A stretch of DNA of 64,000 nucleotides from Mesobacillus jeotgali. Its GTDB lineage: Bacteria; Bacillota; Bacilli; Bacillales; Cytobacillaceae. This document shows positions 11,485-63,653 of the stretch, piece after piece. How positions within the stretch are numbered: the stretch's first letter is position 1; each line of letters begins with the position of its first letter. Location of the stretch: assembly GCF_031759225.1 (NCBI RefSeq), contig NZ_CP134494.1, positions 436,001 to 500,000 of the forward strand, read 5' to 3'. The position numbers and the translations under genes were made by a program. The notes beneath the pieces were generated by a model that was not told where the DNA came from, made no database searches, and saw only the letters and a program-made list of their open reading frames with translations.

Positions 11485-11881
11485 ATTCCCGAAAATAGAT
11501 TCTCCAATTGATTCCAGTGTTCCGCGATCCAGACATTTTCTTCGCGAAATCGTTTGAGGGGAGTGGAGTCTCCCATTTTGCTTAAATTGAAAAGGGGCGC
11601 TTTTCTTATTCAACAAACGGGCCCTATTGTTAAAGATCGCTTGGCAATAAGGATTAGTTAGTATAAAGATTGTATATATTTCACTTAAACTAAACCGATT
11701 TCAGTGTGAAAAATGTGGAGGAGAAATAGTCCCTGAATATTATAAAGGGATTTAGGAGTATCGACTACAGGATTTCCAATAATTATGGTGGAAGAAAAAA
11801 GACCGGACGTATTTTGTACGGTTTTTCTTATATTTTTGTAAGATAATGGAGTTTATCGCGTCTTATATGTAAGGAGGTGAG
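11485..11881 (+). other. intergenic region with degraded dispersed palindrome
   Basis: 397 bases with no credible gene. At 11608-11634 is a degraded copy of the dispersed palindrome: TTATTCAACAAACGGGCC, then CTATTGTTAA. At about 11797-11829 AAAAAGACCG pairs with CGGTTTTTCTT, a terminator-like hairpin close to the sigma gene. AAGGAGG at 11871 serves the sigma gene. Confidence 0.5.
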
Positions 11882-12370
11882 ATGGTGACACAGATTGAGG
11901 ATATTTATAATACATACTTTAAAGATGTATTTTTATATGTGTATAGTTTGTCTGGCGATAAGCATATCGCTGAAGATATTACTTCGGAAACTTTTATGAA
12001 GGCACTAACATCGCTAGACAGTTTCAGAGGGGAAAGTGATATCCGTGTTTGGTTATGCCAAATTGCCAAAAACAGTTATTACTCTTACTTGGGTAAGAAA
12101 AAAAACTTTGTAGATTTAGAGTCACTTCCGGAATCAGCTAGTGAAGACAATGTAGAACAAGAAATAACCACTTCGCAAGCGTCTATGAAGGTACATGAAA
12201 TTATCCAGAATTTAAAAGAGCCATATAAAAAAGTCTTTACGCTCCGTGTATTTGGAGAACTGTCATTTAAGCAAATTGGCAAATTGTATGCAAAAAGTGA
12301 TAACTGGGCTTGTGTTACTTATCACCGTGCTAGAGAAAAGATTAAAGCGCGATTGGAGGATTATCGATGA
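11882..12370 (+). CDS. ECF-type RNA polymerase sigma factor
   Basis: 162 residues with sigma-70 region 2 (about 8-75: LYVYSLSGDKHIAEDITSETF and FRGESDIRVWLCQIAKNSYY) and region 4 (about 103-158: LKEPYKKVFTLRVFGELSFKQIG then a helix-turn-helix). It directs RNA polymerase to a stress regulon. Its stop overlaps the start of the next gene, a zinc-finger membrane anti-sigma factor, by four bases (ATGA), so the two are translationally coupled. AAGGAGG is 4 bases from the ATG and 7 from the following GTG; either start is possible. Confidence 0.88.
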   Translation: MVTQIEDIYNTYFKDVFLYVYSLSGDKHIAEDITSETFMKALTSLDSFRGESDIRVWLCQIAKNSYYSYLGKKKNFVDLESLPESASEDNVEQEITTSQASMKVHEIIQNLKEPYKKVFTLRVFGELSFKQIGKLYAKSDNWACVTYHRAREKIKARLEDYR

Positions 12371-13272
12371 AAATTAGTTGTAATATGATTAGGGATATAC
12401 TGCCTTTATATGTCGAGAATATGGCAAGTCAAGATACTAGAGATATCGTTGAAGAACATATAGCTTCTTGTGAAAACTGCAAAAAACGACTTGAAGAAAT
12501 GAGGACGCTTGAAGAACTGCCAATAGATACCGATATAGCTCCCTTAAGAAATATACAAAATACATTGCGAAGGGAAAAGCTGCAAACGATTATTCTTTCA
12601 GTCATGGTAACATTGGTTTTTGCAGTGGTTACAATGGCTTATCTGACAGAGCCAGCATACATTTCTTATAATGAAAATGCGGTTTCAATCATTGAAAAGA
12701 ATGACGGAACTGTACTTTTGAATTTTAGTGAAGAAGTCTCCGGATTCCATGTAGAACAATATCCCGCAGCAGACAATTCAGGTTATGTCTATGATATAAC
12801 TACATGGGAAACGATTTGGCAACATAAAATAAGCAAAAACAACCTAGAAAATACTGTCTTAAACCCGAATGGAGAAACGGTCGCTTCAATCTATTATTAC
12901 AATACCGATGGAAGTGAAAATATTTTAATTTATGGAGATCCAATAACGGATGGTTCTATCATTACGTTACCTCGGCTAGTTTTAAGCTACTATGTGATGT
13001 TTGCTATAGGATTTTTACTTATTTGTGGAATTGGATTGGCCATATTCCGTAAGAATGAAAAAATAAGAAATGGACTAGAAAAAATAATTCTATTGCCTAT
13101 CTCCTACCTGTTTGCTCACTTAACTATAAAAGGTCTTCACTCAACAACTTACCTTGCTAGTCGAGACTTTTATGCAATATTACTAGTCACAATTTCTTTG
13201 TATTTTGCGTTGTTAGCTGGAAGGAACATATTAAAAAAAATATCAATCAAGAAGCCGAAAAGCACTTTATAA
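12367..13272 (+). CDS. anti-sigma factor, zf-HC2 membrane protein
   Basis: 301 residues. The N-terminal zinc-binding anti-sigma domain has C5, then H32-x3-C36-x2-C39 (HIASCENC). One span follows at about 77-95 and an extracytoplasmic sensor-like part at about 96-200, with three further spans toward the C-terminus. It should hold the upstream ECF sigma factor at the membrane until a signal is received. The signal is unknown. Coupled to the sigma gene by a 4-base overlap. Confidence 0.85.
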   Translation: MKISCNMIRDILPLYVENMASQDTRDIVEEHIASCENCKKRLEEMRTLEELPIDTDIAPLRNIQNTLRREKLQTIILSVMVTLVFAVVTMAYLTEPAYISYNENAVSIIEKNDGTVLLNFSEEVSGFHVEQYPAADNSGYVYDITTWETIWQHKISKNNLENTVLNPNGETVASIYYYNTDGSENILIYGDPITDGSIITLPRLVLSYYVMFAIGFLLICGIGLAIFRKNEKIRNGLEKIILLPISYLFAHLTIKGLHSTTYLASRDFYAILLVTISLYFALLAGRNILKKISIKKPKSTL

Positions 13273-13274
13273 TA

Positions 13275-13454
13275 GTTGTTGCTTTCAGCGATTTTTTTCT
13301 AAATTACAGTTCTATTTTACTTGATTCGGAAAAGTTTCCTGATGTATTCAGAGTTCTAAAACATGGCCAAAAAGTATCCTTTGAATTGGTTGAATACCCA
13401 ATTTCTATTGTTCAGGGGCCAGTTGCAGAAGATGGACTCATTATTTCTGATTAA
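13275..13454 (+). pseudogene. fragment resembling the C-terminal half of a cold-shock domain
   Basis: An open frame without a start codon runs to TAA 13452-13454. It reads FLNYSSILLDSEKFPDVFRV, then LKHGQKVSFELVE and GPVAEDGLIISD. This weakly resembles the second half of a cold-shock domain (HFSAI, FKSLEEGQKVSFEVVEG, GPQA). It overlaps the end of the anti-sigma gene in another frame and is followed by dispersed-repeat sequence, so it is probably a remnant left by rearrangement. Confidence 0.4.
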
Positions 13455-13659
13455 TGAGTCCATCTTCAACGAACGGGTGCGTTGATCCAGAAGGATTAAG
13501 GCACCTTTTTGTTGAAATCCTTATTGAACAAACGGGGCAGCATTCCTGTAATGAAGGAAAATGGTGTTTGAACAAAAAAATAACCTCTTGGTAGAATGAG
13601 AGAGTCCTGACGCTGGCCAGCAAAAAGGACAGATATCTCAAATACCAGGAGGCTTTAAA

Positions 13660-14955
13660 ATGAATTATAACCAGAATAAGAAGATTGCTCAAATAACTTC
13701 TCAGACTCTTATTATAGGAGTCGATATTGCCAAATTCAAGCATGTGGCACGGGCTCAAGATTTTAGGGGAATAGAGTTTGGATCTCCATGTCAATTTGAA
13801 AATACTAAAGAAGGAATTGAGCATTTTCTTAAATGGATTTCGGAAATTAAAAAAGAACAGCGTATGGAAAAAGTGATGGTTGGCATGGAGCCGACAGGCC
13901 ATTATTGGTTTAACTTGGCCCATATTTTAAAAGATAACGGGATTAAATTTGTCGCTGTAAACCCCTTGCACGTCAAGAAAAGCAAGGAGTTGGATGATAA
14001 CTCACCTACGAAGAATGATGTGAAAGATGCCAAGGTCATAGCTCAGCTGGTCAAGGACGGAAGATACGCAGAACCTACGATACCGCAAGGTGTTTATGCA
14101 GAACTCCGGGTGGCAAAGAAAATTCGCGATCTTTTAACTGAAGACCTACAAACGGTCCAAGGACAGGTACACAACTGGATTGACCGGTATTTTCCGGAAT
14201 TCCTCAAGGTATTTAAGAAATGGGAAGGTAAGGCTGCTTTACAATTCTTAAAGCTCTATGCCTTGCCACATGAAATAGCTGTATTCACCGAAGAAGAACT
14301 ACTCGTTCATTTGAGAAAATCCGTATCACGGAGTGTTGGATTAAACAAGATTCGCGAGTTAAAACAGGCAGCCAGTAAGTCCATCGGACTTCGACAAGGT
14401 GCTGAAATGGCCAGGCTTGAGCTAAAAACCATTCTGGCTAAGTATGAATTAATCCAGTTACAATTCGGAGAATTGGATGCAAGACTTGACGGTCTGCTTA
14501 ATGATATTCCAGGTGTACAACAAATGTTAGCGATAAAAGGTGTGGGCAGGGATACAATTGCCGGCTTCTTCGCTGAAGTAGGAGATTTAGGCGAATATAA
14601 TCATCCCAGGCAAATTATCAAGCTGGCCGGTTTAAGCTTGAAAGAAAATACATCGGGTAAGCACAAAGGAAAAACGACCATTACAAAAAGGGGCCGTAAG
14701 AAGCTAAGGGCCCTGTTATTCAGGGTTTGTATGATTCTTGTCGCCAAAAATACGGCATTTAAGGCGTTACATGCGTACTATACTCAACGTCCGGATAATC
14801 CATTAAAGAAGATGCAGTCCCTGATCGCTTTGTGTAATAAACTAATCCGGATCCTCTTTAGTATTGGTAAAAAGCAATTTGAGTTTAATGAAGAAAAGAT
14901 GTTAAAGGACATCCCTCATTTGGCACTAGCCCAGAAGACGGAAATGGCAGCGTAA
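13660..14955 (+). CDS. IS110-family transposase (DEDD recombinase), copy 1
   Basis: 431 residues. The N-terminal RuvC-like DEDD domain shows GVDIAKFKH (D), GMEPTGHYW (E) and NDVKDAKVIAQLV (D, D). The C-terminal Tnp20 domain has IKGVGRDTIAGFFAEVG, HPRQIIKLAGL and the KRGRKKLRALLFR block around the catalytic serine region. This enzyme, guided by an element-encoded RNA, cuts and joins donor and target DNA. AGGAGG precedes the ATG. Identical to the protein at 17423, so transposition or duplication was recent. Confidence 0.95.
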   Translation: MNYNQNKKIAQITSQTLIIGVDIAKFKHVARAQDFRGIEFGSPCQFENTKEGIEHFLKWISEIKKEQRMEKVMVGMEPTGHYWFNLAHILKDNGIKFVAVNPLHVKKSKELDDNSPTKNDVKDAKVIAQLVKDGRYAEPTIPQGVYAELRVAKKIRDLLTEDLQTVQGQVHNWIDRYFPEFLKVFKKWEGKAALQFLKLYALPHEIAVFTEEELLVHLRKSVSRSVGLNKIRELKQAASKSIGLRQGAEMARLELKTILAKYELIQLQFGELDARLDGLLNDIPGVQQMLAIKGVGRDTIAGFFAEVGDLGEYNHPRQIIKLAGLSLKENTSGKHKGKTTITKRGRKKLRALLFRVCMILVAKNTAFKALHAYYTQRPDNPLKKMQSLIALCNKLIRILFSIGKKQFEFNEEKMLKDIPHLALAQKTEMAA

Positions 14956-15012
14956 CTCTGTTTTAGTTTAGATGAATAGTAGTTCTGGTTTTATAGATTT
15001 TGGAGACATTTG

Positions 15013-15215
15013 AAGCACGGATTAGTCGGCAAAGCAACTAAATTACGGGCTAAGACCCTGTGGGGCAGCATGGCTGACATCCACCTCATGGAAAGGTTGG
15101 ACGAAGGAATTTGAGAGCGAAGACTCTGTGAGGCATGGGAGGGTTGACCTCCATGAGTAAATGTGGACATCCACCAGTGCGGTTATATTTTTACTCATCC
15201 ACCATTTTCTGTAAG
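15013..15215 (+). ncRNA. candidate bridge/seek RNA of IS copy 1
   Basis: The 3' non-coding part of the element is dense with stems: GGG-CTAAGA-CCC, GTGG...CCAC around CAGC-ATG-GCTG, CATGGGAGG with CCTCCATG, and GTGG-ACAT-CCAC. Guide RNAs of IS1111-type elements are known to come from this position. The segment GGGGCAGCAT (15062-15071) is identical to the left junction of both copies (target GGGGCAG plus element CAT), which fits a target guide. Exact RNA ends are a guess. Confidence 0.5.
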
Positions 15216-15421
15216 GAACTGGTTAGTGGGTTGTAGCTCTTTTTTCTTACTCTGTCCAAAAAAATCCTTTCAAGTGAAGATCCTCCATTTATAAAGCCAG
15301 TTACCGGAAGGTAAACGACTATGAAATTCTAAGAAAACATGAGTAAATCGGCGTTTTGGCTTCATTTATTGAGGGAGGAATGTTGAATAAGGGAATTGGA
15401 TATTTGCAAGGGGTGTTAACA

Positions 15422-15886
15422 ATGAATTTTGAAGAAATTGATATAAAGAAACATCGAGATACAGTAGTTGCATTTAGGAAAGATTCATTTTATGTAAGTT
15501 TTGGAGATACTACAGGGTTCGGTGATGAAAAAGAATATCTCCATTGGTTAGATGAAAAAATATCAACTTTTCCAAAAGGCTTTATTTTAGTGGAGGAGGA
15601 CGGTAAATATATCGGGCAACTTGAATTAACCGTTCGTGAGTATGAAGGTAACAATATTGGTTATGTAAATCTTTATTATTTAATACCCGAAATGCGTGGG
15701 AAGGGCAGAGGAAAAGAATTGCACAGTTATGCTTTGCAATTTTTCGCAGACAGCAAAGTAAGTGAGTATCATCTGAGAGTTTCCCCATCAAATGCTGCTG
15801 CGATTAAATTTTATCGTAAAATGGGAATGGAAGAAGTTGGTCCAGAGGTTGATGGGAAAGTTATAAGGATGAAGGGTTATTTATAA
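15422..15886 (+). CDS. GNAT family N-acetyltransferase
   Basis: 154 residues. The GNAT fold shows a central YVNLYYLIPEMRGKGRGKEL, which holds the acetyl-CoA pyrophosphate loop (RGKGRGK), and the C-terminal SNAAAIKFYRKMGMEEVG. The acceptor substrate is unknown. AAGGGGTG precedes the ATG at 15422. An open frame continues upstream into the insertion sequence but is not needed. It lies just past the right end of IS copy 1 and is followed by a dispersed palindrome. Confidence 0.85.
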   Translation: MNFEEIDIKKHRDTVVAFRKDSFYVSFGDTTGFGDEKEYLHWLDEKISTFPKGFILVEEDGKYIGQLELTVREYEGNNIGYVNLYYLIPEMRGKGRGKELHSYALQFFADSKVSEYHLRVSPSNAAAIKFYRKMGMEEVGPEVDGKVIRMKGYL

Positions 15887-15925
15887 GCGATGATTCAGGG
15901 TAGCTTATCTCCCTTTTGTTGAATT

Positions 15926-15960
15926 CCTTATTCAACTATCGAGGCAGGATAGTGGACAAG
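15926..15960. repeat. dispersed palindrome, intact copy
   Basis: CTTATTCAACTATC (15927-15940) pairs with GATAGTGGACAAG (15948-15960) around GAGGCAG. It is the best uninterrupted copy of the element that is split by the insertion sequences and intron elsewhere, preceded by the usual CCTTTTGTTGAATT. Confidence 0.7.
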
Positions 15961-15987
15961 ACTATAGCATATTTAGGGGGAGGAACG

Positions 15988-16824
15988 ATGCAATTACACA
16001 ACGGGCTGAACTCTTTTTTTAATGTAATTAAAAACTTGGAAAATAACCAAAGCAAAGAGGAAGCTTGGCTGAACTATTACAAAGAGTACAAAGAAATATT
16101 CGATACCATATTTGCTAATTTGTATATGACAGATATAAATAAAATAAAACAGGATATAGTTCCCCATATTGATTTGTATTCTTTAGCTGAACAGGCAAAT
16201 AAAAGTTCACAAGTTATAGACCAAGCAGAGGTAATTGAAGTACTGAAAAAGTCTGGTGATTACTTTAAATTCACAAAGGAATTTGATGTTTATATGTTGG
16301 TCGGTTTTGGACACATAGATGGAACGGCCTTGCCTGCTGCATCCAGACCATTTTTATATTTAGGTTTGGAAAGACTTTCAAATATTGATATTGAGAGATT
16401 AATACAGCACGAATTTAATCATCTGGTGCGTTTTGATTCCTTGTTAGAAGATAATATGACGGTAGGGCAGTTAATTATAGCAGAAGGTCTTGCAACTTTA
16501 ACTCCCTTGATTATGAATAAGATGGATTTTTCTCATAGTAATCTTCAGAATATGTTGTTTTTAGATGATCAACAATACAATCGTCTAAAAGAGAATATTC
16601 ATTTAATTGAGCAAGATATTAAAACCGATTTTGAGAAAAAAATAACCCCATCTCTTATGGCAAAATACTTTATGTTGAATGAGAATTTGAAATTCGGCAA
16701 ATCCGGCTATTTTTTCGGGATGCAAGTAATACTCACACTACTGAAAAATGGATGGGAACTAAGGGATCTAACCTTTTTAAATTCAAATTTAATTTGGAAT
16801 GAATATCAAAAATTGAGATATTGA
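15988..16824 (+). CDS. putative Zn-dependent protease-like protein (DUF2268 type)
   Basis: 278 residues. HEFNH at residues 141-145 is an HExxH zinc-metalloprotease motif, followed about 30 residues later by IIAEGLAT, where E could be the third ligand. A strand reading VYMLVGFGHIDGTA precedes it, as in the DUF2268 predicted proteases. No signal peptide, so probably cytoplasmic. Substrate unknown. GGGGGAGG precedes the ATG at 15988; the frame extends upstream without a better start. Confidence 0.65.
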   Translation: MQLHNGLNSFFNVIKNLENNQSKEEAWLNYYKEYKEIFDTIFANLYMTDINKIKQDIVPHIDLYSLAEQANKSSQVIDQAEVIEVLKKSGDYFKFTKEFDVYMLVGFGHIDGTALPAASRPFLYLGLERLSNIDIERLIQHEFNHLVRFDSLLEDNMTVGQLIIAEGLATLTPLIMNKMDFSHSNLQNMLFLDDQQYNRLKENIHLIEQDIKTDFEKKITPSLMAKYFMLNENLKFGKSGYFFGMQVILTLLKNGWELRDLTFLNSNLIWNEYQKLRY

Positions 16825-16929
16825 AAGAATACTTAAAAGCGTTCGCGATGGCCAAATTACAAAATTGGCTTCTTTCACTAACGGTGCAGGATAGTTAACT
16901 TAGATAAGGTGCAATACAGGAGGTTATAA

Positions 16930-17220: not shown

Positions 17221-17422
17221 TATGAAAATTGAAGGAATAACATTAAATTATCGAGTTGGATAACCTTTAATTAACCAAAGTCTTATTCAACAAACGGGGG
17301 CAGCATTCCTGTAATGAAGGAAAATGGTGTTTGAACAAAAAAATAACCTCTTGGTAGAATGAGAGAGTCCTGACGCTGGCCAGCAAAAAGGACAGATATC
17401 TCAAATACCAGGAGGCTTTAAA

Positions 17423-18718
17423 ATGAATTATAACCAGAATAAGAAGATTGCTCAAATAACTTCTCAGACTCTTATTATAGGAGTCGATATTGCCAAATTC
17501 AAGCATGTGGCACGGGCTCAAGATTTTAGGGGAATAGAGTTTGGATCTCCATGTCAATTTGAAAATACTAAAGAAGGAATTGAGCATTTTCTTAAATGGA
17601 TTTCGGAAATTAAAAAAGAACAGCGTATGGAAAAAGTGATGGTTGGCATGGAGCCGACAGGCCATTATTGGTTTAACTTGGCCCATATTTTAAAAGATAA
17701 CGGGATTAAATTTGTCGCTGTAAACCCCTTGCACGTCAAGAAAAGCAAGGAGTTGGATGATAACTCACCTACGAAGAATGATGTGAAAGATGCCAAGGTC
17801 ATAGCTCAGCTGGTCAAGGACGGAAGATACGCAGAACCTACGATACCGCAAGGTGTTTATGCAGAACTCCGGGTGGCAAAGAAAATTCGCGATCTTTTAA
17901 CTGAAGACCTACAAACGGTCCAAGGACAGGTACACAACTGGATTGACCGGTATTTTCCGGAATTCCTCAAGGTATTTAAGAAATGGGAAGGTAAGGCTGC
18001 TTTACAATTCTTAAAGCTCTATGCCTTGCCACATGAAATAGCTGTATTCACCGAAGAAGAACTACTCGTTCATTTGAGAAAATCCGTATCACGGAGTGTT
18101 GGATTAAACAAGATTCGCGAGTTAAAACAGGCAGCCAGTAAGTCCATCGGACTTCGACAAGGTGCTGAAATGGCCAGGCTTGAGCTAAAAACCATTCTGG
18201 CTAAGTATGAATTAATCCAGTTACAATTCGGAGAATTGGATGCAAGACTTGACGGTCTGCTTAATGATATTCCAGGTGTACAACAAATGTTAGCGATAAA
18301 AGGTGTGGGCAGGGATACAATTGCCGGCTTCTTCGCTGAAGTAGGAGATTTAGGCGAATATAATCATCCCAGGCAAATTATCAAGCTGGCCGGTTTAAGC
18401 TTGAAAGAAAATACATCGGGTAAGCACAAAGGAAAAACGACCATTACAAAAAGGGGCCGTAAGAAGCTAAGGGCCCTGTTATTCAGGGTTTGTATGATTC
18501 TTGTCGCCAAAAATACGGCATTTAAGGCGTTACATGCGTACTATACTCAACGTCCGGATAATCCATTAAAGAAGATGCAGTCCCTGATCGCTTTGTGTAA
18601 TAAACTAATCCGGATCCTCTTTAGTATTGGTAAAAAGCAATTTGAGTTTAATGAAGAAAAGATGTTAAAGGACATCCCTCATTTGGCACTAGCCCAGAAG
18701 ACGGAAATGGCAGCGTAA
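17423..18718 (+). CDS. IS110-family transposase, copy 2
   Basis: 431 residues, identical to the transposase at 13660 including ribosome site and flanks. The DEDD residues and Tnp20 C-terminal domain are intact, so both copies look functional. Confidence 0.95.
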   Translation: MNYNQNKKIAQITSQTLIIGVDIAKFKHVARAQDFRGIEFGSPCQFENTKEGIEHFLKWISEIKKEQRMEKVMVGMEPTGHYWFNLAHILKDNGIKFVAVNPLHVKKSKELDDNSPTKNDVKDAKVIAQLVKDGRYAEPTIPQGVYAELRVAKKIRDLLTEDLQTVQGQVHNWIDRYFPEFLKVFKKWEGKAALQFLKLYALPHEIAVFTEEELLVHLRKSVSRSVGLNKIRELKQAASKSIGLRQGAEMARLELKTILAKYELIQLQFGELDARLDGLLNDIPGVQQMLAIKGVGRDTIAGFFAEVGDLGEYNHPRQIIKLAGLSLKENTSGKHKGKTTITKRGRKKLRALLFRVCMILVAKNTAFKALHAYYTQRPDNPLKKMQSLIALCNKLIRILFSIGKKQFEFNEEKMLKDIPHLALAQKTEMAA

Positions 18719-18775
18719 CTCTGTTTTAGTTTAGATGAATAGTAGTTCTGGTTTTATAGATTTTGGAGACATTTG

Positions 18776-18978
18776 AAGCACGGATTAGTCGGCAAAGCAA
18801 CTAAATTACGGGCTAAGACCCTGTGGGGCAGCATGGCTGACATCCACCTCATGGAAAGGTTGGACGAAGGAATTTGAGAGCGAAGACTCTGTGAGGCATG
18901 GGAGGGTTGACCTCCATGAGTAAATGTGGACATCCACCAGTGCGGTTATATTTTTACTCATCCACCATTTTCTGTAAG
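18776..18978 (+). ncRNA. candidate bridge/seek RNA of IS copy 2
   Basis: Same sequence as the candidate RNA of copy 1 (offset 3763). GGGGCAGCAT is at 18825-18834 and again matches the left junction of this copy (17297-17306). Confidence 0.5.
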
Positions 18979-19168
18979 GAACTGGTTAGTGGGTTGTAGC
19001 TCTTTTTTCTTACTCTGTCCAAAAAAATCCTTTCAAGTGAAGATCCTCCATTTATAAAGCCAGTTACCGGAAGGTAAACGACTATGAAATTCTAAGAAAA
19101 CATGAGTAAATCGGCGTTTTGGCTTCATTTATTGAGGGAGAAGAGTTTAAGAAGAAAGGGTGTGCAAT

Positions 19169-19702: not shown

Positions 19703-19906
19703 GGTGAATTAGTAATGGTAGAAAATAGTGTTTTCGTGTGGATTGCATAGAATATTAAACATTGTGAAGTTTTGTACTTAAACTACCATGAAAATTAACT
19801 TCTGCGATTCTGTAAAAAAGGCAATACTTAAGAAGACGCAGCTCGTTCGTTTTTTAAAAAGGGAGAGCGCCAAATTCATTGATCTATGGTAATTGAGTGG
19901 ACTGGT

Positions 19907-21130
19907 TTAAGATGCTTTAGGTTCTTCTAACTTAACAATGTATCCTAAGCTTTCTAGTCGTCTCAGTGAATGCCTGACAATAGATTGTTGTCTCTGCTTA
20001 TCAAAGTAGTCTTCGCCTAAGTCTACATACATTTCTTTCCGTGTTAAGAGATAATAAGAGATACGTAACATGGCGTGAGCGACTACGATTCCAGCACGTT
20101 TCTTGCCTTTTCGTGAGGCTGTACGCCTATACAGTGCTCCGAGATAGTTTTTGGATCCCCTTACGGAATGAGCTGCTTCAGTTAACGCTGACCTTAAATA
20201 TTTGTTTCCTTTTTTGGTTTTGGCCGATTTCCTTTTCCCTGCACTTTCATTCTGTCCTGGAACCAAACCTGCCCAGGAACACATGTGGGCTGCAGTTGGG
20301 AACTGATTTTTTACATCCGTTCCTATTTCAGAAAGGATCTGTTCTGCCATCCGCGTCGCAATGCCTGGAATGGAATCAAGTATTTCTACATCCTCTTGAT
20401 GAACGCTTACTCTTGTCGCGACTTCTTGATCGAGCATCTCGATTTGTTCAGTAAGAAAGTCAATATGGCCTAAAATGGTTTTTAACATTAATCTTTGATG
20501 GGAGTTAATATAACCTTTTAAGGCCAGTTCAAGTTCGTCCTTCTTCTTTTTCATGGTGCGTCGAGCGAAGTTTGCTAGTTTCCCAGGATCTTCTTCTCCA
20601 TCTGCGATTGCGTCAAGCATATCTCTTGCCGAAACACCTAGTACATCCGAAACAACAGAACCCAGCTTAATGTTCGCGCCTTCCAACACCTTTTGGATTC
20701 GGTTATGTTGTCTAGCTCGCTCTTCAATGATACTACGGCGATAGCGAACCAGCTCGCGCAGCTCTCTTTGATTCCGGTCGGGAATATAACTTGCTTTAAG
20801 TAGTCCATGTCGAAGCAGTTTGGCAATCCATTCTGCATCCTTAACATCTGTCTTGCGTCCTGGAACGGCCTTCATATGTTGGGCATTCACCACTAAAAAC
20901 TCTATGTCCTCAGCTTCAAGTAAATTCACGATGGGTTTCCAATAAACGCTCGTGCTTTCCATGGCCACATGGGTACAGCCATGTTGTTTTACCCAGTCCA
21001 CCAATTGTAATAGAAATACAGTTTTGGTGGAGAATGTTTGAATCTCCTTTCCTTTTGGGGTGATGATACAGGCAGTAATGTTATCCTTATGGACATCCAT
21101 ACCACAAGCTCTTTCAATGACTACATCCAT
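19907..21130 (-). CDS. IS110-family transposase (DEDD recombinase)
   Basis: 407 residues. DEDD domain: CGMDVHKDNITACI (D), AMESTSVYWKP (E) and TDVKDAEWIAKLL (D, D). Tnp20 part: LDSIPGIATRMAEQILSEIG, CSWAGLVPGQNESAGKRKSA and GNKYLRSALTEAA. It differs clearly from the 431-residue IS1111-type enzyme in the same window. AAAGGATG lies before the ATG at 21130; the ATG three codons upstream overlaps that site. Confidence 0.93.
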   Translation of the reverse strand: MDVVIERACGMDVHKDNITACIITPKGKEIQTFSTKTVFLLQLVDWVKQHGCTHVAMESTSVYWKPIVNLLEAEDIEFLVVNAQHMKAVPGRKTDVKDAEWIAKLLRHGLLKASYIPDRNQRELRELVRYRRSIIEERARQHNRIQKVLEGANIKLGSVVSDVLGVSARDMLDAIADGEEDPGKLANFARRTMKKKKDELELALKGYINSHQRLMLKTILGHIDFLTEQIEMLDQEVATRVSVHQEDVEILDSIPGIATRMAEQILSEIGTDVKNQFPTAAHMCSWAGLVPGQNESAGKRKSAKTKKGNKYLRSALTEAAHSVRGSKNYLGALYRRTASRKGKKRAGIVVAHAMLRISYYLLTRKEMYVDLGEDYFDKQRQQSIVRHSLRRLESLGYIVKLEEPKAS

Positions 21131-21139
21131 TGAAAACAT

Positions 21140-21388
21140 CCTTTCTACGGCAAACTTGAAATAGAGGCTGGTGCATCAACCAGAATAGGATTAATCTACC
21201 ATGTGTGCTTCCCTAAAGGGAGCTACAGTCAGTGGTGCACCGTGGTCGGTGGAGTCAGACTAACGGATGGGCTCTAACGCACCATAGTTCAGCGACCTTC
21301 CTCTTCCAGCCGTAGAATCAGTATTGACGGTTCGGAACCATTTTCATTCTCTGTGGTGAAGCGCCGATTTTTTGCGCTTCATGGATGG
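21140..21388 (-). ncRNA. candidate bridge RNA of the second IS110 element
   Basis: The region between the element end and its transposase, read on the minus strand. It contains CCGTTAG (complement of 21260-21266), identical to the target next to the junction, directly preceded by GCCCATC, close to the element end AGCCATCC. A second GCGTTAG lies 10 bases away (complement of 21274-21280). Stems include GCTCCC-TTTA-GGGAGC. Adjacent donor-like and target-like segments in one loop region fit a bridge RNA. Ends are uncertain. Confidence 0.4.
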
Positions 21389-21407
21389 CTAACGGGTGCA
21401 AGAGTAC

Positions 21408-21436
21408 AGAAGCAACGCATAATTTGCGTTGCTTCT
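21408..21436. terminator. strong hairpin between IS110 and recombinase gene
   Basis: A perfect 12-bp stem, AGAAGCAACGCA with TGCGTTGCTTCT, loop TAATT. It sits just past the recombinase stop codon. The T run is weak, so termination is probable but not certain. Confidence 0.6.
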
Positions 21437-21444: not shown

Positions 21445-22284
21445 TTAGAAGTATTTCTGGTAAAACTCCTGTCTCAGCCTTCCGCTTAGTTGGGCATATA
21501 TTCGAGTGGTTTCACTTTTCTCGTGGCCCAAAAGGCTTTGGATAACTTCAACTGGGGCTCCATTATTCAATAAATGGGTGGCATAGCTGTGTCGGAGTTG
21601 GTGGGGATGAATTTCCTTATCTATGCCGGCACGCGCTGAGATTTTCTTAATGTAATACCTCATTTGGGCAATACTCATCCTGTGTGGCTGTCTATCTGTT
21701 ACAAAAATGGCCGGATCTTTATCCTGGCGGCTATCAATGTATCGCTTAAGCCATAACTCTGCCCGAATATTAAAATACACTTCACGTTCCTTGTCACCCT
21801 TTCCCCTGACGATGGCAGAACGGTTGGACCAATTAATGCAATTGCGATCAAGTGCAGCAATTTCACCGATTCTGCAGCCAGTTGAAAACATAAATTCAAA
21901 AAGTGCCTTTTCCATAGGACTTAGACAGGCTTCACGCAAAAGTTCAATCTCCCTTTCCGATAGAAACTTTGGAATTCTCTTGCCCGCTTTAGGCTCCTTG
22001 ATCTTTGCTGCTGGATTTATGGATATATGGCCTTCCTCGTGACACCAGCGGAACAATGACTTAAGAAACCGGATTCTGTGGGCCAAACTTGAGGGTTTTA
22101 AATCCTTGCCTTGAGTAACAAGATATTTCTTTAATCCTTCTGTGTCGAAACTATCGATATTCGGATCATTAAAATAACCGATGAGTAGCTTTGCTTGGAT
22201 TCCATATGCTTTTAAAGTATAAGGTGAAAAGCCTTCTATACGTTTATCAGCTTCATAGGATTTCCAAGCAGTTGATAACAACAA
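21445..22284 (-). CDS. tyrosine recombinase/integrase
   Basis: 279 residues. N-terminal SAM-like core-binding domain (about 1-85, SPYTLKAYGIQAKLLIGYF) and C-terminal catalytic domain with the active-site set: R in TGCRIGE, K in VRGKGDKERE, HQLRH (H, R), H in LLGHEKS and the nucleophile Y in TTRIYAQLS. It cuts and rejoins DNA at specific sites; substrate site and partner are unknown. The TTG start is 6 bases after GGAGGG. No att-like duplication or element backbone is visible, so it is an orphan integrase in the accessory block. Confidence 0.88.
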   Translation of the reverse strand: MLLSTAWKSYEADKRIEGFSPYTLKAYGIQAKLLIGYFNDPNIDSFDTEGLKKYLVTQGKDLKPSSLAHRIRFLKSLFRWCHEEGHISINPAAKIKEPKAGKRIPKFLSEREIELLREACLSPMEKALFEFMFSTGCRIGEIAALDRNCINWSNRSAIVRGKGDKEREVYFNIRAELWLKRYIDSRQDKDPAIFVTDRQPHRMSIAQMRYYIKKISARAGIDKEIHPHQLRHSYATHLLNNGAPVEVIQSLLGHEKSETTRIYAQLSGRLRQEFYQKYF

Positions 22285-24654: not shown

Positions 24655-24740
24655 GAGTTGACAAGGAAGGATTAATGTACTTTTTTGTTGAATTCCTTAT
24701 TAAGCTATAGGAGCAGAATACTTAAAGAACGACAAGTTAA
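24655..24740. repeat. degraded dispersed palindrome
   Basis: TTTTTTGTTGAATTCCTTAT, then TAAGCTATAGGAGCAGAATACTTA, preceded by AGGAAGGATTAATGTAC. The arms are diverged but the order of blocks is the same as in the copy at 15926. Confidence 0.5.
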
Positions 24741-28424: not shown

Positions 28425-28905
28425 TTTCATCCAACTTTTTTACCATCCTTCTGCCATTCCCTAATGTATTGCCTAATCATATATTATTAGCAATTATCTA
28501 ATTTATTAACTAAACTGCCTCGTAAACGTGCGAAAAGCAGTGTGATTTCATAAGAGAAACACACTGCTTTTATAACTGTTTTTATATTTGCTTTTTACTA
28601 TGCGGGTAGCTCAAAAGAGAACGGCTTAATATGAATTCAGCGTGTTTTTTTATTGTGTTACCTTACCGAGAGTCATTACTGGAGATTATTCAATTATGCT
28701 GGTCCTGTTGTTACGAAGGATGTACCCTCTAATACAATAAGTGGCAGGAAATCCAGCCAAGATACTTAAAAATATTTTATGTTCTGATTCCACACGAAAG
28801 ATTGTGAAATAATGTACTTAAACTAAAGGGTGCTTCGTATTATAGAGTTAACCAGTATTTACTGGTTGGCTCTTTTTTTTATAGGACCTATTATTTCAGT
28901 AGCCA
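28425..28905 (+). other. intergenic region with hairpins and dispersed repeat
   Basis: About 480 bases without a credible gene. AAAAGCAGTGTG (28533-28544) pairs with CACACTGCTTTT (28560-28571), a terminator-like stem. At 28801-28836 is a copy of the long form of the dispersed element, ATTGTGAAATAATGTACTTA then AACTAAAGGGTGC. At 28845-28881 a 13-bp stem GAGTTAACCAGTA/TACTGGTTGGCTC is followed by eight T, a clear terminator. Confidence 0.6.
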
Positions 28906-30418
28906 GGGTAGAACGTACGGGTGCGTGGGAGTTAGATCTCGTAATATAAACTGTTCGCCCCCTACTTGTAGAATGATGTTTGAGGCTGGTTGGGACAATT
29001 TTGATCTCGTATAACAAGCGAAGCTATGGAACTACAGGAAGGTATTGGGGTTACTGGCGAGTAAACAAAGGGAGAGATAATCATTGAATCCAGTAGTTGG
29101 CCTGGATGTGGCCAAAGGAGAAAGTGAAGCTCAGGCATTTCTAGATAAAGACAAGCCATTTGGAAAGAGCTTCAGGATAAAACATATCAAGGAGGATTTA
29201 GATACCTTCATCTCTTTTTTGAAAGAGATAGAAAGAAAGACTGGCGTTAGACCAGCAGTAATTCTTGAATCTACAGGTCATTACCATACACCAATTATTC
29301 AATGTCTGGAGGAGAGTCAATATCTATATATCTTGGTAAACCCCATCATTTCTCATCAGGCCAAGAAAACCAGTCTTAGAAAGGTAAAGACGGATGCCGT
29401 GGATGCATATCAACTTTGTGTTTTGTATTACAAGGAAGAATTTGAGCCTTATAAGAAACGAGGACTAAGGCTACTAAATTTAAGAACACTGTCAAGGCAA
29501 TACGAAGCCGTTTCGAACCTTTACATTCAGGCAAAACTTCAATTCCACACAATTCTTGACCAGGTATTTCCGGAATATAGGGGAGTCTTTGGAGATCTAT
29601 TTTCAAAAGTTTCTCTACAGATTTTAAAGGAGTTTCCTACATCTGAAGATGTTCTGAGGACTGGTGAAGTAAAGATACTGGAGCGAATTGTGGGAATGCG
29701 TATAAAACGGTCTGAAGGTTGGGCCAGGGAGAGGGTAGCTAAATTAATAGCTTCGGCTGAGCGAAATCCTTTCCAACAAGGTGTGTATCAAAGTCAGTTG
29801 TTCAGTTTGGATATGTATATCTCTATGCTTCTTCAGTACCAAGAACACCTATCCAATATAGAGGCAGAGATAGATGTCCTGGCAGAAGAAATTGAAGAAT
29901 GTAAGATAATCCAATCAATTCCCGGTATAGGAGGAAAGATCGCGGCAACGATCATTTCCGAAATCGGAGAAATTGACCGGTTTAATCACCCTAAAAAACT
30001 TGTGGCTTACGCTGGAATTGATCCAAGTGTCCATTCATCAGGTAAGTTTACAGCTACTATAAATCATATTACTAAACGAGGTTCAAGCCGTTTACGGCAC
30101 GCTTTGTATATGGCCGTTTTATGCGGTATAAGAAGCTCCAGGAACAAGAAGCTAAAAGAGTATTATGATCGGAAACGAAATGAAGGAAAGCCTTCAAAAG
30201 TAGCACTGATAGCTTGTGTAAACAAGCTTTTACACTGGATTTATGCAATCCTAAAAAGGAATGAGCAGTTCCTAGATATGGCTTAATGAACAAGATAAAA
30301 CAGTTAATGAAAAACCTTCCAAACAGTATTTGGAGGGTTATTTGGCGTGCCTCCAAAAGTATAACACGGAAGAACAAATATTTTAATAAGAAGTTCTTGA
30401 CTCCTATTAGCTGGTTTA
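28906..30418 (+). mobile_element. IS110-family insertion sequence (third type), limits tentative
   Basis: A single IS110 transposase with about 180 bases of non-coding DNA before it and about 130 after. The left border may lie after CCTATTATTTCAGTAGCCAGGG and the right before TTGAATAATAACC, which would again be the two arms of the dispersed palindrome, but I have no second copy to prove the ends. The upstream non-coding part is the expected place for a bridge RNA. Confidence 0.5.
29084..30286 (+). CDS. IS110-family transposase (DEDD recombinase)
   Basis: 400 residues. DEDD domain: VVGLDVAKGESEAQAFL (D), ILESTGHYHTP (E) and VKTDAVDAYQLCVLY (D, D). Tnp20 part: IQSIPGIGGKIAATIISEIG, LVAYAGIDPSVHSSGK and KRGSSRLRHALYMAVL. 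It is unlike either of the other two IS110 enzymes in the window. TTG start, 7 bases after GGGAGAG. Confidence 0.93.
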   Translation: MNPVVGLDVAKGESEAQAFLDKDKPFGKSFRIKHIKEDLDTFISFLKEIERKTGVRPAVILESTGHYHTPIIQCLEESQYLYILVNPIISHQAKKTSLRKVKTDAVDAYQLCVLYYKEEFEPYKKRGLRLLNLRTLSRQYEAVSNLYIQAKLQFHTILDQVFPEYRGVFGDLFSKVSLQILKEFPTSEDVLRTGEVKILERIVGMRIKRSEGWARERVAKLIASAERNPFQQGVYQSQLFSLDMYISMLLQYQEHLSNIEAEIDVLAEEIEECKIIQSIPGIGGKIAATIISEIGEIDRFNHPKKLVAYAGIDPSVHSSGKFTATINHITKRGSSRLRHALYMAVLCGIRSSRNKKLKEYYDRKRNEGKPSKVALIACVNKLLHWIYAILKRNEQFLDMA

Positions 30419-30468
30419 TGTTGAATAATAACCATTATATTTTGGATCCGAAAACACAATAAATTAGA

Positions 30469-38370: not shown

Positions 38371-38401
38371 AGCGCAGGGTGGATGGATAGTTGAGGTTAT
38401 A

Positions 38402-39690
38402 ACGGGTTTGAGTGCTGCCGGGGTAATGCTGTCAAAGTAGAGAAGGAATCGTGACAGGTTTGGTTACTGGAGAGATAAAGCTGTTAAGAAAGAGAAGGAA
38501 TTGTGACAGGTTTGGTTGCTGGCGGGGTAAAGCTGTCAAGAAAAAGAGGAAATCGTGACAGGTTTGGTTGCTGGCGGGGTAAAGCTGTCAAGAAAAAGAG
38601 GGATTCGTGACAGGTTTGGTTGCTGGCGGGGTAAAGCTGTCAAGAAAGAGAAGGAATCGTGACAGGTTTGGTTGCTGGCGGGGTAAAGCTGTCAAGAAAG
38701 AGAGGGATTCGTGACAGGTTTGGTTGCTGGCGGGGTAAAGTTGTCAAGAAAGAGAAGAAATCGTGACAGGTTTGATTGCTGGAGAGATAAAGCTGTCAAG
38801 AAAAAGAGGAAATCGTGACAGGTTTGGCAATGATTGCCGTAAAGCTGTCAAAAAAAAGCTCAACTTAAGACAGGTTTGGTGTCAAATGAAGAAAAGCTGT
38901 CAAAAGAAAGGCGAACTTAAGACAGGTTTGGTGCCAAACGGAGAAAAGCTGTCAAAAGAAAGGCGAACTTAAGACAGGTTTGATGCCAAACGGGGAAAAG
39001 CTGTCAAAAGAAAGGCGAACTTAAGACAGGTTTGATGCCAATCGCAGAAAAGCTGTCAAAAGAAAGGCGAACTTAAGACAGGTTTGGTGCCAAACGGAGA
39101 AAAGCTGTCAAAAGAAAGGCGAACTTAAGACAGGTTTGATGCCAAACGGGGAAAAGCTGTCAAAAGAAAGGCGAACTTAAGACAGGTTTGATGCCAATCG
39201 CAGAAAAGCTGTCAAAAGAAAGGCGAACTTAAGACAGGTTTGGTGCCAAACGGAGAAAAGCTGTCAAAAGAAAGGCGAACTTAAGACAGGTTTGATGCCA
39301 AACGGGGAAAAGCTGTCAAAAGAAAGGCGAACTTAAGACAGGTTTGATGCCAATCGCAGAAAAGCTGTCAAAAGAAAGGCGAACTTAAGACAGGTTTGAT
39401 GCCAATCGCAGAAAAGCTGTCAAAAGAAAGGCGAACTTAAGACAGGTTTGGCGTCAAATGAAGAAAAGCTGTCAAAAGAAAGGCGAACTTAAGACAGGTT
39501 TGGCGTCAAATGAAGAAAAGCTGTCAAAAGAAAGGCGAACTTAAGACAGGTTTGGCGTCAAACGGGGAAAAGCTGTCAAAAGAAAGGCGAACTTAAGACA
39601 GGTTTGGTGTCAAATGAAGAAAAGCTGTCAGAAGAAAGGCGAACTTAAGACAGGTTTGGCGTCAAACGAAGGAAAGCTGTCAGAAGCAGG
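38402..39690. repeat. tandem array of about 25 units of 52 bp, two unit types
   Basis: Type 1 (about nine units, to about 38865): GACAGGTTTGGTTGCTGGCG, GGGTAAAGCTGTC, then AAGAAAGAGAAGGAATCGT. Type 2 (about sixteen units): GACAGGTTTG, a 13-base variable block, AAAAGCTGTC, then AAAAGAAAGGCGAACTTAA. Every unit has the dyad TGACAG/GACAG ... CTGTC(A) with half-sites about 26-28 bases apart. In type 2 the variable block follows a repeating order of three versions. No gene is present. Confidence 0.95.
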
Positions 39691-54761: not shown

Positions 54762-54887
54762 GCTTAAAAATGGTTAAATGTTCCAAATATAGGTCTTGAG
54801 GCTGACTCCTTATTAAAGCTGCAGCCTGTTAATTGATTGAGGGTTATGACTTATGATTAACCTATAATCAGTTGGAGGCGAAGTAAT

Positions 54888-55601: not shown

Positions 55602-55620
55602 ACACAACGGTATAATGGAG

Positions 55621-55662
55621 AGGAGTCAATTCGTATATGAATTGACTCCTTTTTCTTTTCTG
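55621..55662 (+). terminator. terminator of the toast-rack gene
   Basis: AGGAGTCAATTC pairs with GAATTGACTCCT, followed by TTTTTC. Confidence 0.92.
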
Positions 55663-55729
55663 CTGGTATCTCTCAGTATAGTAATCCTTCCTCAGGGAAT
55701 ATTAAGGAAAAAGTAATTTAGGTGTTTAT

Positions 55730-58374: not shown

Positions 58375-58375
58375 G

Positions 58376-59497: not shown

Positions 59498-59506
59498 ATA
59501 ACAATG

Positions 59507-59540
59507 AAAAAGCTCCCTAGCAAGGGAGCTTTCCTTTATG
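59507..59540 (+). terminator. terminator of the germination operon
   Basis: AAAGCTCCCT pairs with AGGGAGCTTT, then CCTTTAT. Confidence 0.85.
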
Positions 59541-59598
59541 TATTCCTAAGAACGGTGATGAATCCGTCCAGAATCTGATGGCTTATTTTAAACTGATA
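59536..59598 (-). pseudogene. 3' end of the GNAT gene cut off by the IS3 element
   Basis: On the minus strand, left of the insertion, a frame reads YQFKISHQILDGFITVLRNT and stops at 59536. This is a typical GNAT C-terminal strand and matches what the truncated GNAT at 61242 lacks. Confidence 0.7.
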
Positions 59599-59662
59599 TG
59601 CTCCCCTTTAGGTAGACAGATTAAAAAATAAAAATCTGTTTACTTAAAGGGGAGTATTTTTT

Positions 59663-60340: not shown

Positions 60341-60411
60341 GCCAGATACGCCTTGAGGAGAAATATATCGCTATCAAGGAACTTCACGAAGAAGAAGGAT
60401 TCTCTTTCGTT

Positions 60412-61218: not shown

Positions 61219-61241
61219 ATTGTTTTTATTATTTCCACTGT

Positions 61242-61736
61242 CTACTTGACGGGGAGCAGTTCAAACCCTTTGCTTCTGTAAAAATTGAGGGCAGCATCAT
61301 TCCCGTTGGATACATAGATGAATTGGTCATGGACGTCGTTAAAGGAATCGAGCCATTCCTTTGATTTTTCAAAAAGGACCGACCCAATCCCCATGCTACG
61401 ATACCCATCTTTGATATAAAACTGCGATAGGCAGCCGACATCATTCCCTTTTACCGATTCCATGTCAAAAAAAGTAGCAAACTCGCTTGAATATACTTCC
61501 TTTGGTGAAACATTGCTATACACGTAGCCAACAACTTGATCCCCATCCATTGCGGCAATGATTTGATTGTCTTTCGCGTTTTTAATCGATGGAACAAGTC
61601 TTGTTTCAAAGCTCATGCCATCAAAGAGTTCAGGGCGAATCGTCGCTAATGATTTCTGGTAGACCATCAACTCATTGCAGAGATCTTTTACAGTGGTAAT
61701 CTGCTCTTCCGATATGAGCTCATAAGTAATTGCCAT
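61242..61736 (-). CDS. GNAT acetyltransferase, 3' end replaced by IS3 sequence
   Basis: 164 residues as it stands. GNAT core: DVGCLSQFYIKDGYRSMGIG (acetyl-CoA loop) and VSNGNDAALNFYRSKGFE. The last six residues, LLPVK and the stop, come from the right end of the IS3 element; the native ending lies at 59536-59598. The catalytic fold is nearly complete, lacking the last strand, so activity is doubtful. Start at 61736 after AAGGAAG. Confidence 0.85.
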   Translation of the reverse strand: MAITYELISEEQITTVKDLCNELMVYQKSLATIRPELFDGMSFETRLVPSIKNAKDNQIIAAMDGDQVVGYVYSNVSPKEVYSSEFATFFDMESVKGNDVGCLSQFYIKDGYRSMGIGSVLFEKSKEWLDSFNDVHDQFIYVSNGNDAALNFYRSKGFELLPVK

Positions 61737-61898
61737 TATCCAACTTCCTTTCTTTCAGAATCCTAAATCGGATTATACCGCGAAACATCGATTCTTGATA
61801 ACCAAAATGGAAAAGGTAGCCTATTGTTTTTTCTTAAAGATAGCTTGTCATGATTAGGCCGCATGGTTCATAAACTCTATCAAGAGGGGGGTGTAGAG

Positions 61899-62117
61899 TT
61901 GAACCGTGTTTCGAACAGAGTAGATTATTATATAAAAGACAAATGTCTCTTAAGTGCCAATGTAAAGCAGTGGGAGCAATATATTGCTGCCTTGAGGGCC
62001 TGCAATACCGTGACGATAAACAAACAGGAATACATGGTAGACAAAATAAATATGGTTCACGATCCTGCAACCATCGTGTTGAAAGTCAATATTCAACCAC
62101 TTAAAGTTTACAATTAA
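61899..62117 (+). CDS. small protein of unknown function
   Basis: 72 residues: MNRVSNRVDYYIKDKCLLSA, then WEQYIAALRACNTVTINKQE and a beta-rich end. No family recognised. TTG at 61899 is 7 bases after GGGGGG; an ATG twelve codons upstream lacks a site. Followed by a terminator. Confidence 0.5.
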   Translation: MNRVSNRVDYYIKDKCLLSANVKQWEQYIAALRACNTVTINKQEYMVDKINMVHDPATIVLKVNIQPLKVYN

Positions 62118-62150
62118 GTATCCTTCCGGGATGCTTTTTATTTTTTTAGG
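62110..62150 (+). terminator. terminator
   Basis: AAGTATCC pairs with GGATGCTT (one G-U), followed by TTTATTTTTTT. Confidence 0.7.
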
Positions 62151-62674
62151 ATCTTTTCTGGTTTCTGACATGAAATGTTGGAGCGCGACAGTATTTACTT
62201 TGGACATGTGCCCGAAAAGAGGAGGAGCCGGGGGTTTCGGTAACAAGTTGGAGGAACATATGCCCGGTGATATGCATCAGTAAGTTTATTGATTCATGAG
62301 AGGCTATCCTATGTATCACCTCCTATCTAACTTGATTTCCAAGCAACGTTGATCCAGAAGGATAACTGGTTTACTTCAGAGGTGCAAACAAGTAAAACAC
62401 AAGGCATATTGCACGGATTTTCACATTGAAATTCACAGTGCAATTTTTCTTGTTATATCAATGTTTATTATAATTTTATTTAAAAACCTCACATCAATTC
62501 ACAGGTCATTTCTCATTGACGGAAATAATTATTGGAGGGTGTGTGATTTTGTGTTGATTAGGTAAGTGGATTGTACGGTATTATAAAGGTGTTTGGATAT
62601 TTATGTTAAAATTAAAATAAGGTTATAGAAGACTTTGTGAAACAATGTACTTAAAGTAACGGAGCAGTTTAGTT
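62151..62674 (+). repeat. intergenic region ending in the dispersed element
   Basis: 524 bases without a credible gene. GGAGG before a seven-codon frame MPGDMHQ (62260s) may be a gene remnant. AACGTTGATCCAGAAGGAT near 62346 is shared with 13480. ATTGCAC (62408-62414) pairs with GTGCAAT (62438-62444), then T5. From about 62636 the dispersed element runs TTTGTGAAACAATGTACTTA, AAGTAACGGAGCAGTTTAGTT up to the intron. Confidence 0.6.
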
Positions 62675-63592
62675 GTGCGAAATGTTCCTAGTTAAAATGG
62701 AGGATGGTAACATCACTCTGGTAAAGGCTAGGCAGTTCCTTTCGGAACTGAAGGATTATATCGAAGAATCAAATGAAGGGGTAACGCCCCGAAGGGTTCT
62801 CTCTTAGTCGAGTAGCACTGGATTGAGTAAGAATGAAAGTGTTATAAGCTCGGTGAAAAGGCGTGAGAATTTACCGTAACAGGTTAAGCTGACGAAAGCC
62901 TACCCGATGGGGTGGTGTAGATCATGATGCTTGAGTTGAATGAATATGGTGAGAATGCAAATAAACCTAAAAGAAAAGGTTAAGCTGGCGAACTTCTGAA
63001 TGTACGGGTCTAGACCTGCGATACATAGAAATGTGTATATCACCAAATTGTGAGGTTAGCTGTGGGTAAGTAAGAATAACTAATATGAAAATCCATGATA
63101 CGTTACAGGCGTATGAATGCTAACAGGCTTACAGGAAGCACCTAAGTTCATTCTATAATAGATATAATTCAACGTTGTAAGCTGATAACGTGGAGGGCTT
63201 ACTCCCGAAGAAGCGTTGGCAAGGAAAGCAGTAATGACATTAGTTACTGTATAACTTGTCTTTATGTCAGTGAAAGTGGTGGCACAGTACCAACGAAAGG
63301 CCTAATCAGCCTGGAGGGATAGCCACTAGACTAATGAAGAATCATTTAATCATGTAAGGCAAGTCTTTATCGGTTAATAAGGTTCTTGTGAGACTAATAG
63401 AGGTTTACCTCCTACGGGAGGCACCGACTTATTGAAACGGAAGAATTGAGACATGAAGGGGCTAAGGTTTCTGAGGTGTTGATGATTAAATTGAATTGGA
63501 TTAGTTGGAACGCCGTATGCGGTGAAAGTCGCACGTACGGTGTGAACAGGGGGAAAAGGGAGCGATAACTTCAAACCCTTACCTATCTGTAT
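62675..63592 (+). mobile_element. ORF-less group II intron
   Basis: 918 bases. It begins GTGCG, the group II 5' consensus. Domain V is unmistakable: CGCCGTATGCGGTGAAAGTC followed by GCACGTACGGTGT (about 63510-63543), with a CGC catalytic triad. A domain VI-like stem and final AT end it at 63592. AACTAA (63078-63083) is complementary to the last six exon bases TTAGTT (62669-62674), a good EBS1-IBS1 pair. No reverse transcriptase gene is present. Removing the intron joins GCAGTTTAGTT to GAATAAGAA, restoring the dispersed element. Confidence 0.85.
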
Positions 63593-63653
63593 GAATAAGA
63601 AATCACAAAAGTAATGAGCATTTACTTTAAAATAAGATTAAACGGGGGTTTAT

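Follow-up and report, generated by a model that had tools for sequence, protein, structure and literature searches.

A 64,000-nucleotide stretch of the Mesobacillus jeotgali genome (positions 436001-500000 of the complete 4.63 Mb contig NZ_CP134494.1; hereafter the window) carries a recurrent palindromic intergenic element that several mobile elements have entered. This palindrome very probably serves as the core site for recombination in an integron-like system of gene cassettes in Bacillales, with a dedicated Xer-type recombinase whose gene we call int. By sequence comparison, the system has a defined site, arrays of sites with a common orientation, an attI-like site beside int in most loci, cassettes that assort, and homology that switches inside the spacer of the site.

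The palindrome forms nine sites in the window, four uninterrupted and five split by four kinds of element. Its consensus is CTTATTGAACTAAC-GGGGCAG-GTTAGTTGAAGAAG, with a 7-nucleotide spacer and about 36 nucleotides overall. The sites, two cassette genes and the proposed cassette recombinase are:

11605-11638, plus strand: uninterrupted site
13465-13516, plus strand: long terminator-like hairpin that contains a left half-site and a T run; a site follows directly downstream
13519-13538 (left) and 15376-15392 (right), plus strand: split site, IS1111-A copy 1 between the halves, break GC^AG
15422-15886, plus strand: cassette gene, GNAT acetyltransferase
15927-15960, plus strand: uninterrupted site
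15988-16824, plus strand: cassette gene, DUF2268 predicted Zn protease
16869-16909, plus strand: uninterrupted site
17282-17301 (left) and 19139-19154 (right), plus strand: split site, IS1111-A copy 2 between the halves, break GC^AG
19763-19785 (left) and 21392-21409 (right), plus strand: split site, IS110-B between the halves, break CTA^ACGGG
21445-22284, minus strand: int, Xer-like tyrosine recombinase, 279 amino acids from TTG, direction opposite to the array
24696-24730, plus strand: uninterrupted site, with the T-run remnant of a long hairpin ahead of it
28803-28833 (left) and 30418-30433 (right), plus strand: split site, IS110-C between the halves, break GGGTGC^TT
62636-62674 (left) and 63593-63611 (right), plus strand: split site, group II intron between the parts, break TTTAGTT^GAATAAG

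The right arm with at most one mismatch occurred 18 times against 6.2 expected, a count equalled in none of 100 shuffles. The core alone was weak (34 occurrences against 23.5 expected, equalled in 2 of 100 shuffles): chance is excluded for the arm motif and only marginally for the core. A strict 38-nucleotide pattern with three mismatches found no copy in the genome, the sites being too divergent for it. A covariance model from 15 sites showed the genomic sites to be clustered and mostly co-oriented per cluster. Model R2, built from sites of other genomes whose seeds had been found with R1, a model of this genome's own sites, again gave six matches in the window region, with E from 0.006 to 2.7. 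An earlier note on this DNA had listed about ten palindrome copies. The recurrence stands and three positions drop out: 13465 is a different, longer hairpin, 25222 is degenerate and 43498 is partial. All four junctions at which the note saw a split copy were confirmed, a fifth split site was added, and its suspicion that another IS110 element (28906) lay in the palindrome proved correct, since the flanks 28803-28833 and 30418-30433 form a site.

Several observations concern the surroundings of the sites. Genomic sites lie on the plus strand at 0.08-2.39 Mb and on the minus strand at 2.8-4.3 Mb, as if co-oriented with replication; the site at 541645 is an exception, and minus matches at plus sites reflect the palindrome being read in reverse. 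A terminator-like hairpin, starting with a second half-site, stands ahead of some sites, as at window 13465-13516 (-42.1 kcal/mol for a 91-nucleotide stretch that also contains a second hairpin). A run of five T was present within 30 nucleotides upstream of 102 of 445 sites, downstream of 53 of 447, and in 11.5% of random 30-mers.

Arrays around int relatives were surveyed in 78 loci (1.283 Mb), drawn from the best 80 of 317 int-encoding stretches in public genome contigs. By their record titles these loci belong to Bacillales genera, with one exception: the contig of L066, titled Chryseobacterium sp. ISL-80 (int 95% identical), may be a mislabelled record or a case of transfer. A site profile gave 543 matches at E<=0.1 in 76 of the 78 loci, and 539 of these lay on the opposite strand to int. 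The 150 best matches from the same loci had served to train the profile, so reversed sequence is the fair control, and it gave no match at this threshold. Of the 74 loci with enough flank, 52 had a site (E<=1) at a distance of 40-135 bp upstream of int. Downstream, a site at 35-115 bp was seen in 13 of 74 loci, and sites on both sides in 11 of 70; the idea that int is always closely flanked on both sides was therefore rejected.

The arrays are built of single genes. From 457 neighbouring-site intervals we set aside 57 outside 150-4000 bp, 26 without an open reading frame (ORF) of 60 amino acids and 47 with int. In 283 of the 327 int-free intervals used (median 752 bp), the longest ORF was on the strand of the site, and in a subset of 222 intervals the median distance from stop codon to site was 69 bp. 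Scanning 100 of 195 eligible cassette proteins returned 79 Pfam families, led by SUKH, GNAT, NUDIX, glyoxalase and DinB. A defence-island reading was rejected: among the same 100 proteins PADLOC matched five families with one or two members each, against the 79 Pfam families of mixed function.

Cassettes that are neighbours in the window occur apart elsewhere. The GNAT/DUF2268 pair found matches in 6 of 151 genomes, this one included: GNAT alone in G100 (98%) and DUF2268 alone in G121 and G068 (92%), cut at the sites, while G015 and G040 each matched parts of one of the two cassettes. Within the genome, paralogous blocks at distant loci begin or end their homology inside the site. A 94.8% identical sigma/anti-sigma block (541622-539984) starts inside site 11605-11638, at window 11625; homology of an alpha/beta-hydrolase unit (2152088-2153163 versus 4056530-4055454) stops exactly after GCAG; and one block holds the window int gene. 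Overall, 1102 of 5990 homology-block ends fell within 25 bp of a site centre, as against 2.7% of random positions (insertion sequence (IS) and intron copies included). In 51 blocks a site marked each end in both of the loci compared: most contain int, one is an IS1111 relative and eight contain neither. Five of these eight span different genomes, for example a 412 bp block (86%) in Bacillus sp. FJAT-29814 and Psychrobacillus.

Alignment of such boundaries points to the position of exchange. Where homology was confined to the left side, identity exceeded background up to column 17 and hardly further (231 boundaries, probably many of them int-proximal); where it was confined to the right, the excess began at column 25 (32 boundaries), isolated columns such as 1 and 3 aside. 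The profiles therefore locate the exchange in the spacer, columns 18-24. In 50 placed int-proximal sites, the left (int-side) half varied by int lineage and the right half was of cassette type. The 400 bp beyond the int-proximal site were homologous in 3 of 15 locus pairs whose int DNA was at least 95% identical, and in none of 173 pairs at 85-95%. An integron attI likewise keeps its integrase-side half while the adjoining cassette is replaced.

The int product matched Pfam Phage_integrase (1.7e-39), and a second copy, 95% identical, lies at 4056452-4057303. The best NCBIfam model was XerA, at 204 bits for P0001 and 209 for P0002, below its cut-off of 220; P0002 scored 203 bits with XerC (cut-off 335) and 200 with XerD (cut-off 330), again below both cut-offs. 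The catalytic R, HxxR, H and Y residues were invariant across 20 aligned sequences. The two XerC/XerD-like recombinases of the genome are 25-28% identical to int, which, judged by its sequence, is distinct from housekeeping XerC/D. A recombinase tree was used only for this separation; it contained no IntI sequences and its support was moderate (87/95).

Four kinds of mobile element occupy the five split sites:

13539-15375, plus strand: IS1111-type element copy 1 (IS1111-A); coding sequence 13660-14955, non-coding region downstream; Pfam DEDD_Tnp_IS110 1.3e-32
17302-19138, plus strand: IS1111-type element copy 2 (IS1111-A); coding sequence 17423-18718
19786-21391, minus strand: IS110-B; coding sequence 19907-21139 on the minus strand, non-coding region upstream; Pfam DEDD_Tnp_IS110 4.8e-41
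28834-30417, plus strand: IS110-C; coding sequence 29084-30286, non-coding region upstream; Pfam Transposase_20 5.5e-26
62675-63592, plus strand: group II intron without ORF; Rfam RF02004 1.6e-26 and RF00029 4.2e-9, both above gathering score

The insertion sequences show the architecture of their families, a DEDD transposase accompanied by a non-coding region, which lies downstream in IS1111 and upstream in IS110. A guide search of the non-coding region against the target flanks gave longest matches of 7 nucleotides, reached by about 10% or more of shuffles. All four genomic copies of IS1111-A, with identical transposase, split the site at GC^AG. IS110-B occupied the site at one of its two independent places, the other holding two copies in tandem within TTTAACTAACGG, before a start codon; the core CTA is present at both IS110-B junctions, and the right part of the site it splits in the window is 35 bp from the end of int. 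Three of five IS110-C copies were clearly in the site, a fourth (4.35 Mb) showed the GGGTGC core only, and the fifth lay in another hairpin, with ACGGGTGG. The intron was in the site in all three copies, each time after TAGTT; two have no ORF, and one has a 603-amino-acid reverse-transcriptase ORF between pieces at 4051150 and 4048436.

Relatives of three elements were surveyed in other genomes. For IS1111-A (33 loci: 4 own and the 29 best of a family search that matched 46 of 151 genomes), both ends were available in 24 loci, and the joined flanks scored above the 99th percentile (12.9) of 990 random joins in 19 and above their maximum (38.3) in 15. The five low joins comprise one own copy with a spacer 1 nucleotide longer, two with the left half only (a shared flank), one whose right side carries a second element, and one weak case; nine one-ended loci, mostly 70-72% relatives and some less site-like, were left unscored. 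In the 30 best intron loci (43 of 151 genomes matched), 25 of 26 5'-junctions, two of them own, scored above the 99th percentile obtained from 1200 random placements; 22 were also above the maximum. IS110-C was surveyed at 30 loci, 27 with both flanks: 18 were above the 99th percentile, three more had a clear left half, and six were unlike the site or on the percentile line (one on the line). In a separate observation, the int-proximal site of locus L132 is followed by the start of a group II intron (GTGCGAAATGT), so the intron can occupy the attI-like position too.

These data bear on the claim of the earlier note that unrelated elements share one palindrome as their landing site. The shared target is supported; rather than a passive repeat resembling repetitive extragenic palindromic (REP) sequences, the palindrome is, on present evidence, a probable cassette recombination site. 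An empty site of the kind sought by the note exists in the relative G100, in which the orthologous cassette (L243) has the palindrome unbroken where the window has IS1111-A copy 1. The expectation that copies across the genome lie inside the palindrome holds clearly for 11 of 14 insertions and falls short for IS110-B (one of two places) and IS110-C (clearly three of five), and for three of the four elements (IS1111-A, IS110-C and the intron) the target is retained in most of the relatives that were scored.

To assess distribution, 200 genomes of the class were scanned for int (E<=1e-70) and for sites (E<=0.001, strict filters). int was present in 8 and sites in 17; sites occurred in 6 of the 8 int-bearing genomes versus 11 of the 192 without int. 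The two int genomes without recognised sites have int at 50-51% identity. One (L172) has an array of its own with related but distinct sites, CTAACGGGAAACGTTAG and CTAACGGGCAGGTTAG, and in the other (L173) a single related site follows int. From these two cases, int and site appear to diverge together. In L172 the sites are three times paired 70-72 nucleotides apart around a terminator hairpin (1267-1367, 5714-5815 and 8080-8179, read by eye), and the full unit may thus be a composite in which two complete sites flank a terminator-like hairpin.

Several results weigh against the reading of the palindrome as a cassette recombination site. Its support comes from sequence, from which we infer recombination. 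The 78 loci hold only the closest relatives of int, and the site profile was trained on the loci that it then searched. In 22 of 74 loci there was no near site upstream of int; the window copy itself had no recognised site nearby upstream, and in four close relatives (L065, L066, L071 and L072) the first site was 974-976 bp away. A stop or broken frame was found in the matched range of 8 of 78 int genes. The boundary pairs behind the identity profiles are non-independent, and the conserved site makes BLAST ends imprecise. A scan of the gap between int and site revealed no enrichment of promoters directed at the cassettes: matches with at most two mismatches occurred in 2 of 49 cases, as against 8% of shuffles. 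Sites also occur in the 11 genomes without int mentioned above, nine of which have a single match. As to folding of the site, no measure of hairpin covariation exceeded shuffles in a first test, and in a second the covariation score was reached by 14 of 500 shuffles and other measures by 51-307; a folded-RNA reading of the palindrome was rejected on the little support that these two tests gave.

Could this be a true integron, its recombinase an IntI and its sites attC sites overlooked in Bacillota? The architecture is shared: a tyrosine recombinase gene with a site just upstream (unseen for the window int), co-oriented single-gene cassettes each ending 3' in a site, arrays with and without integrase, and specialised parasites, including IS1111 elements and group II introns. 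In addition, among the best 120 of 1433 int homologues at E<=1e-30, whose names are mostly generic (XerD, tyrosine-type recombinase), NCBI names one 'site-specific tyrosine recombinase/integron integrase'. The recombinase itself argues otherwise. With the integron-integrase model TIGR02249, P0002 scored 89.2 bits and P0001 87.4, against a cut-off of 265, and the best stretch covered only the C-terminal part; no IntI-like insertion was seen, as XerD and XerA chains can be aligned with int along most of its length without a long insertion, and the R-to-H spacing is 92-93 in the three homologues measured. The site differs as well: it is about 36 nucleotides long with a 7-nucleotide spacer, its folding finds little support, and its arms have another sequence. 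The attC R boxes are RYYYAAC and GTTRRRY. The first is printed as RYYYACC in PMC7923331. Compared by eye, the consensus arms (..GAACTAAC / GTTAGTTGAA..) misfit the R-box consensus, and an attC reading from ATTCAAC/GTTGAAT was dropped for this reason. Further differences are the Bacillales host, the failure to find a Pc-like promoter in the int-site gap scanned, and the occasional position of int between two close sites. We regard a true integron as very unlikely: the system appears to work like an integron and, by the features tested, is outside the integron definition.

Housekeeping XerC/XerD might alternatively mobilise real arrays, as in pdif modules, with int a passenger cassette. int is Xer-like, the genome has two XerC/XerD-like recombinases, and int does lie between two close sites in the 11 of 70 loci noted above. 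Its usual neighbour, however, is the upstream site whose left half tracks int lineage, and the presence of int predicts sites across the 200 genomes, whereas XerC/D are, to our knowledge, near-universal; this explanation therefore seems to us very improbable indeed. The pdif/Xer modules of Acinetobacter (PMC7399989) also have genes flanked by short Xer-type recombination sites; the present system differs in having a dedicated recombinase gene beside the array and sites of one orientation in long arrays. Least credible, in our judgement, are dispersed repeats of REP type or of miniature inverted-repeat transposable element type, with genes between them by chance and blocks shuffled by homologous recombination between repeats. 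Clusters of sites away from both int genes of the genome would fit such repeats, and REP sequences are known targets of IS110/IS1111 elements (IS621, ISPpu10, ISPa11; PMC11187229), palindromic and intergenic like the site described here. The Bacillales palindrome differs from those targets in being, on the present reading, itself the recombination site of a gene-capture system. Near-uniform strand relative to int (539 of 543 matches), int-proximal sites with lineage-specific left and exchanged right halves, and homology switches within 7 nucleotides all speak against passive repeats. Divergent 36-nucleotide sites should, moreover, make poor RecA substrates.

Under the cassette reading, int would bind the pair of inverted arms, and strand exchange would take place inside the spacer GGGGCAG. 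Two recombining sites would release the gene between them as a circle, the circle would recombine with the attI-like site next to int and so insert the gene, and repeated insertion would build same-strand arrays pointing away from int. The parts of this scheme that we infer from the patterns described are the catalytic role of int, the circular intermediates, the chemistry (single- or double-strand) and the mode of cassette expression. If the palindrome is a cassette recombination site, several elements would for that reason converge on it: IS110, IS1111 and group II elements would exploit it as a conserved intergenic target. IS1111-type elements and group IIC-attC introns are known to target the attC sites of true integrons (PMC11187229 and PMC7923331, respectively). 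The former resemble IS1111-A in the non-coding region downstream of the transposase and in hitting a cassette recombination site at a fixed point; here the site is of Bacillales, the split is at GC^AG and guide matches were non-significant. The latter are likewise a group II lineage dedicated to a cassette recombination site; the intron described here runs in the same direction as site and cassettes and enters the right arm after TAGTT.

Bacillales probably possess an integron-like gene-capture platform not descended from IntI, with an Xer-derived integrase, a short dif-like site with crossover in a 7-nucleotide spacer, mobile arrays with an int-linked insertion site, and its own parasite guild (IS1111, IS110, group II intron). 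It would occur in many genera of Bacillaceae and planococci, while other families of the class would carry divergent int/site pairs, and it would have arisen from Xer recombinases in parallel with integrons. A search of titles and abstract beginnings in the open-access literature found no description of the system; subscription journals and preprints were outside this search and a prior description is possible. Integrons are reported to be very rare in Firmicutes: IntegronFinder 2.0 (PMC9024848) detected one complete integron, that of Limnochorda pilosa, and a few attC clusters, and Bacillus subtilis 168 is given there as an example of a genome without attC sites. A separate Xer-type cassette system could account for part of the accessory-gene turnover across Bacillales and, if real, would be a second case of a gene-capture system evolving from Xer recombinases. 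The puzzling convergence of unrelated elements would become predictable ecology, cassette sites being repeated intergenic targets tracked by specialised IS and introns, and int could offer a compact cassette recombinase as a tool.

Other features of the window include tandem repeats with a period of about 51-52 bp at 5462-6392, 8364-8824 and 38386-39686, with a similar array at 2147091-2147881 of the contig. A cspA thermoregulator RNA (Rfam RF01766) lies at 338-680 on the minus strand. The segment 59593-61277 has a 99.6% identical copy at 629912-631597 and is probably a mobile element.

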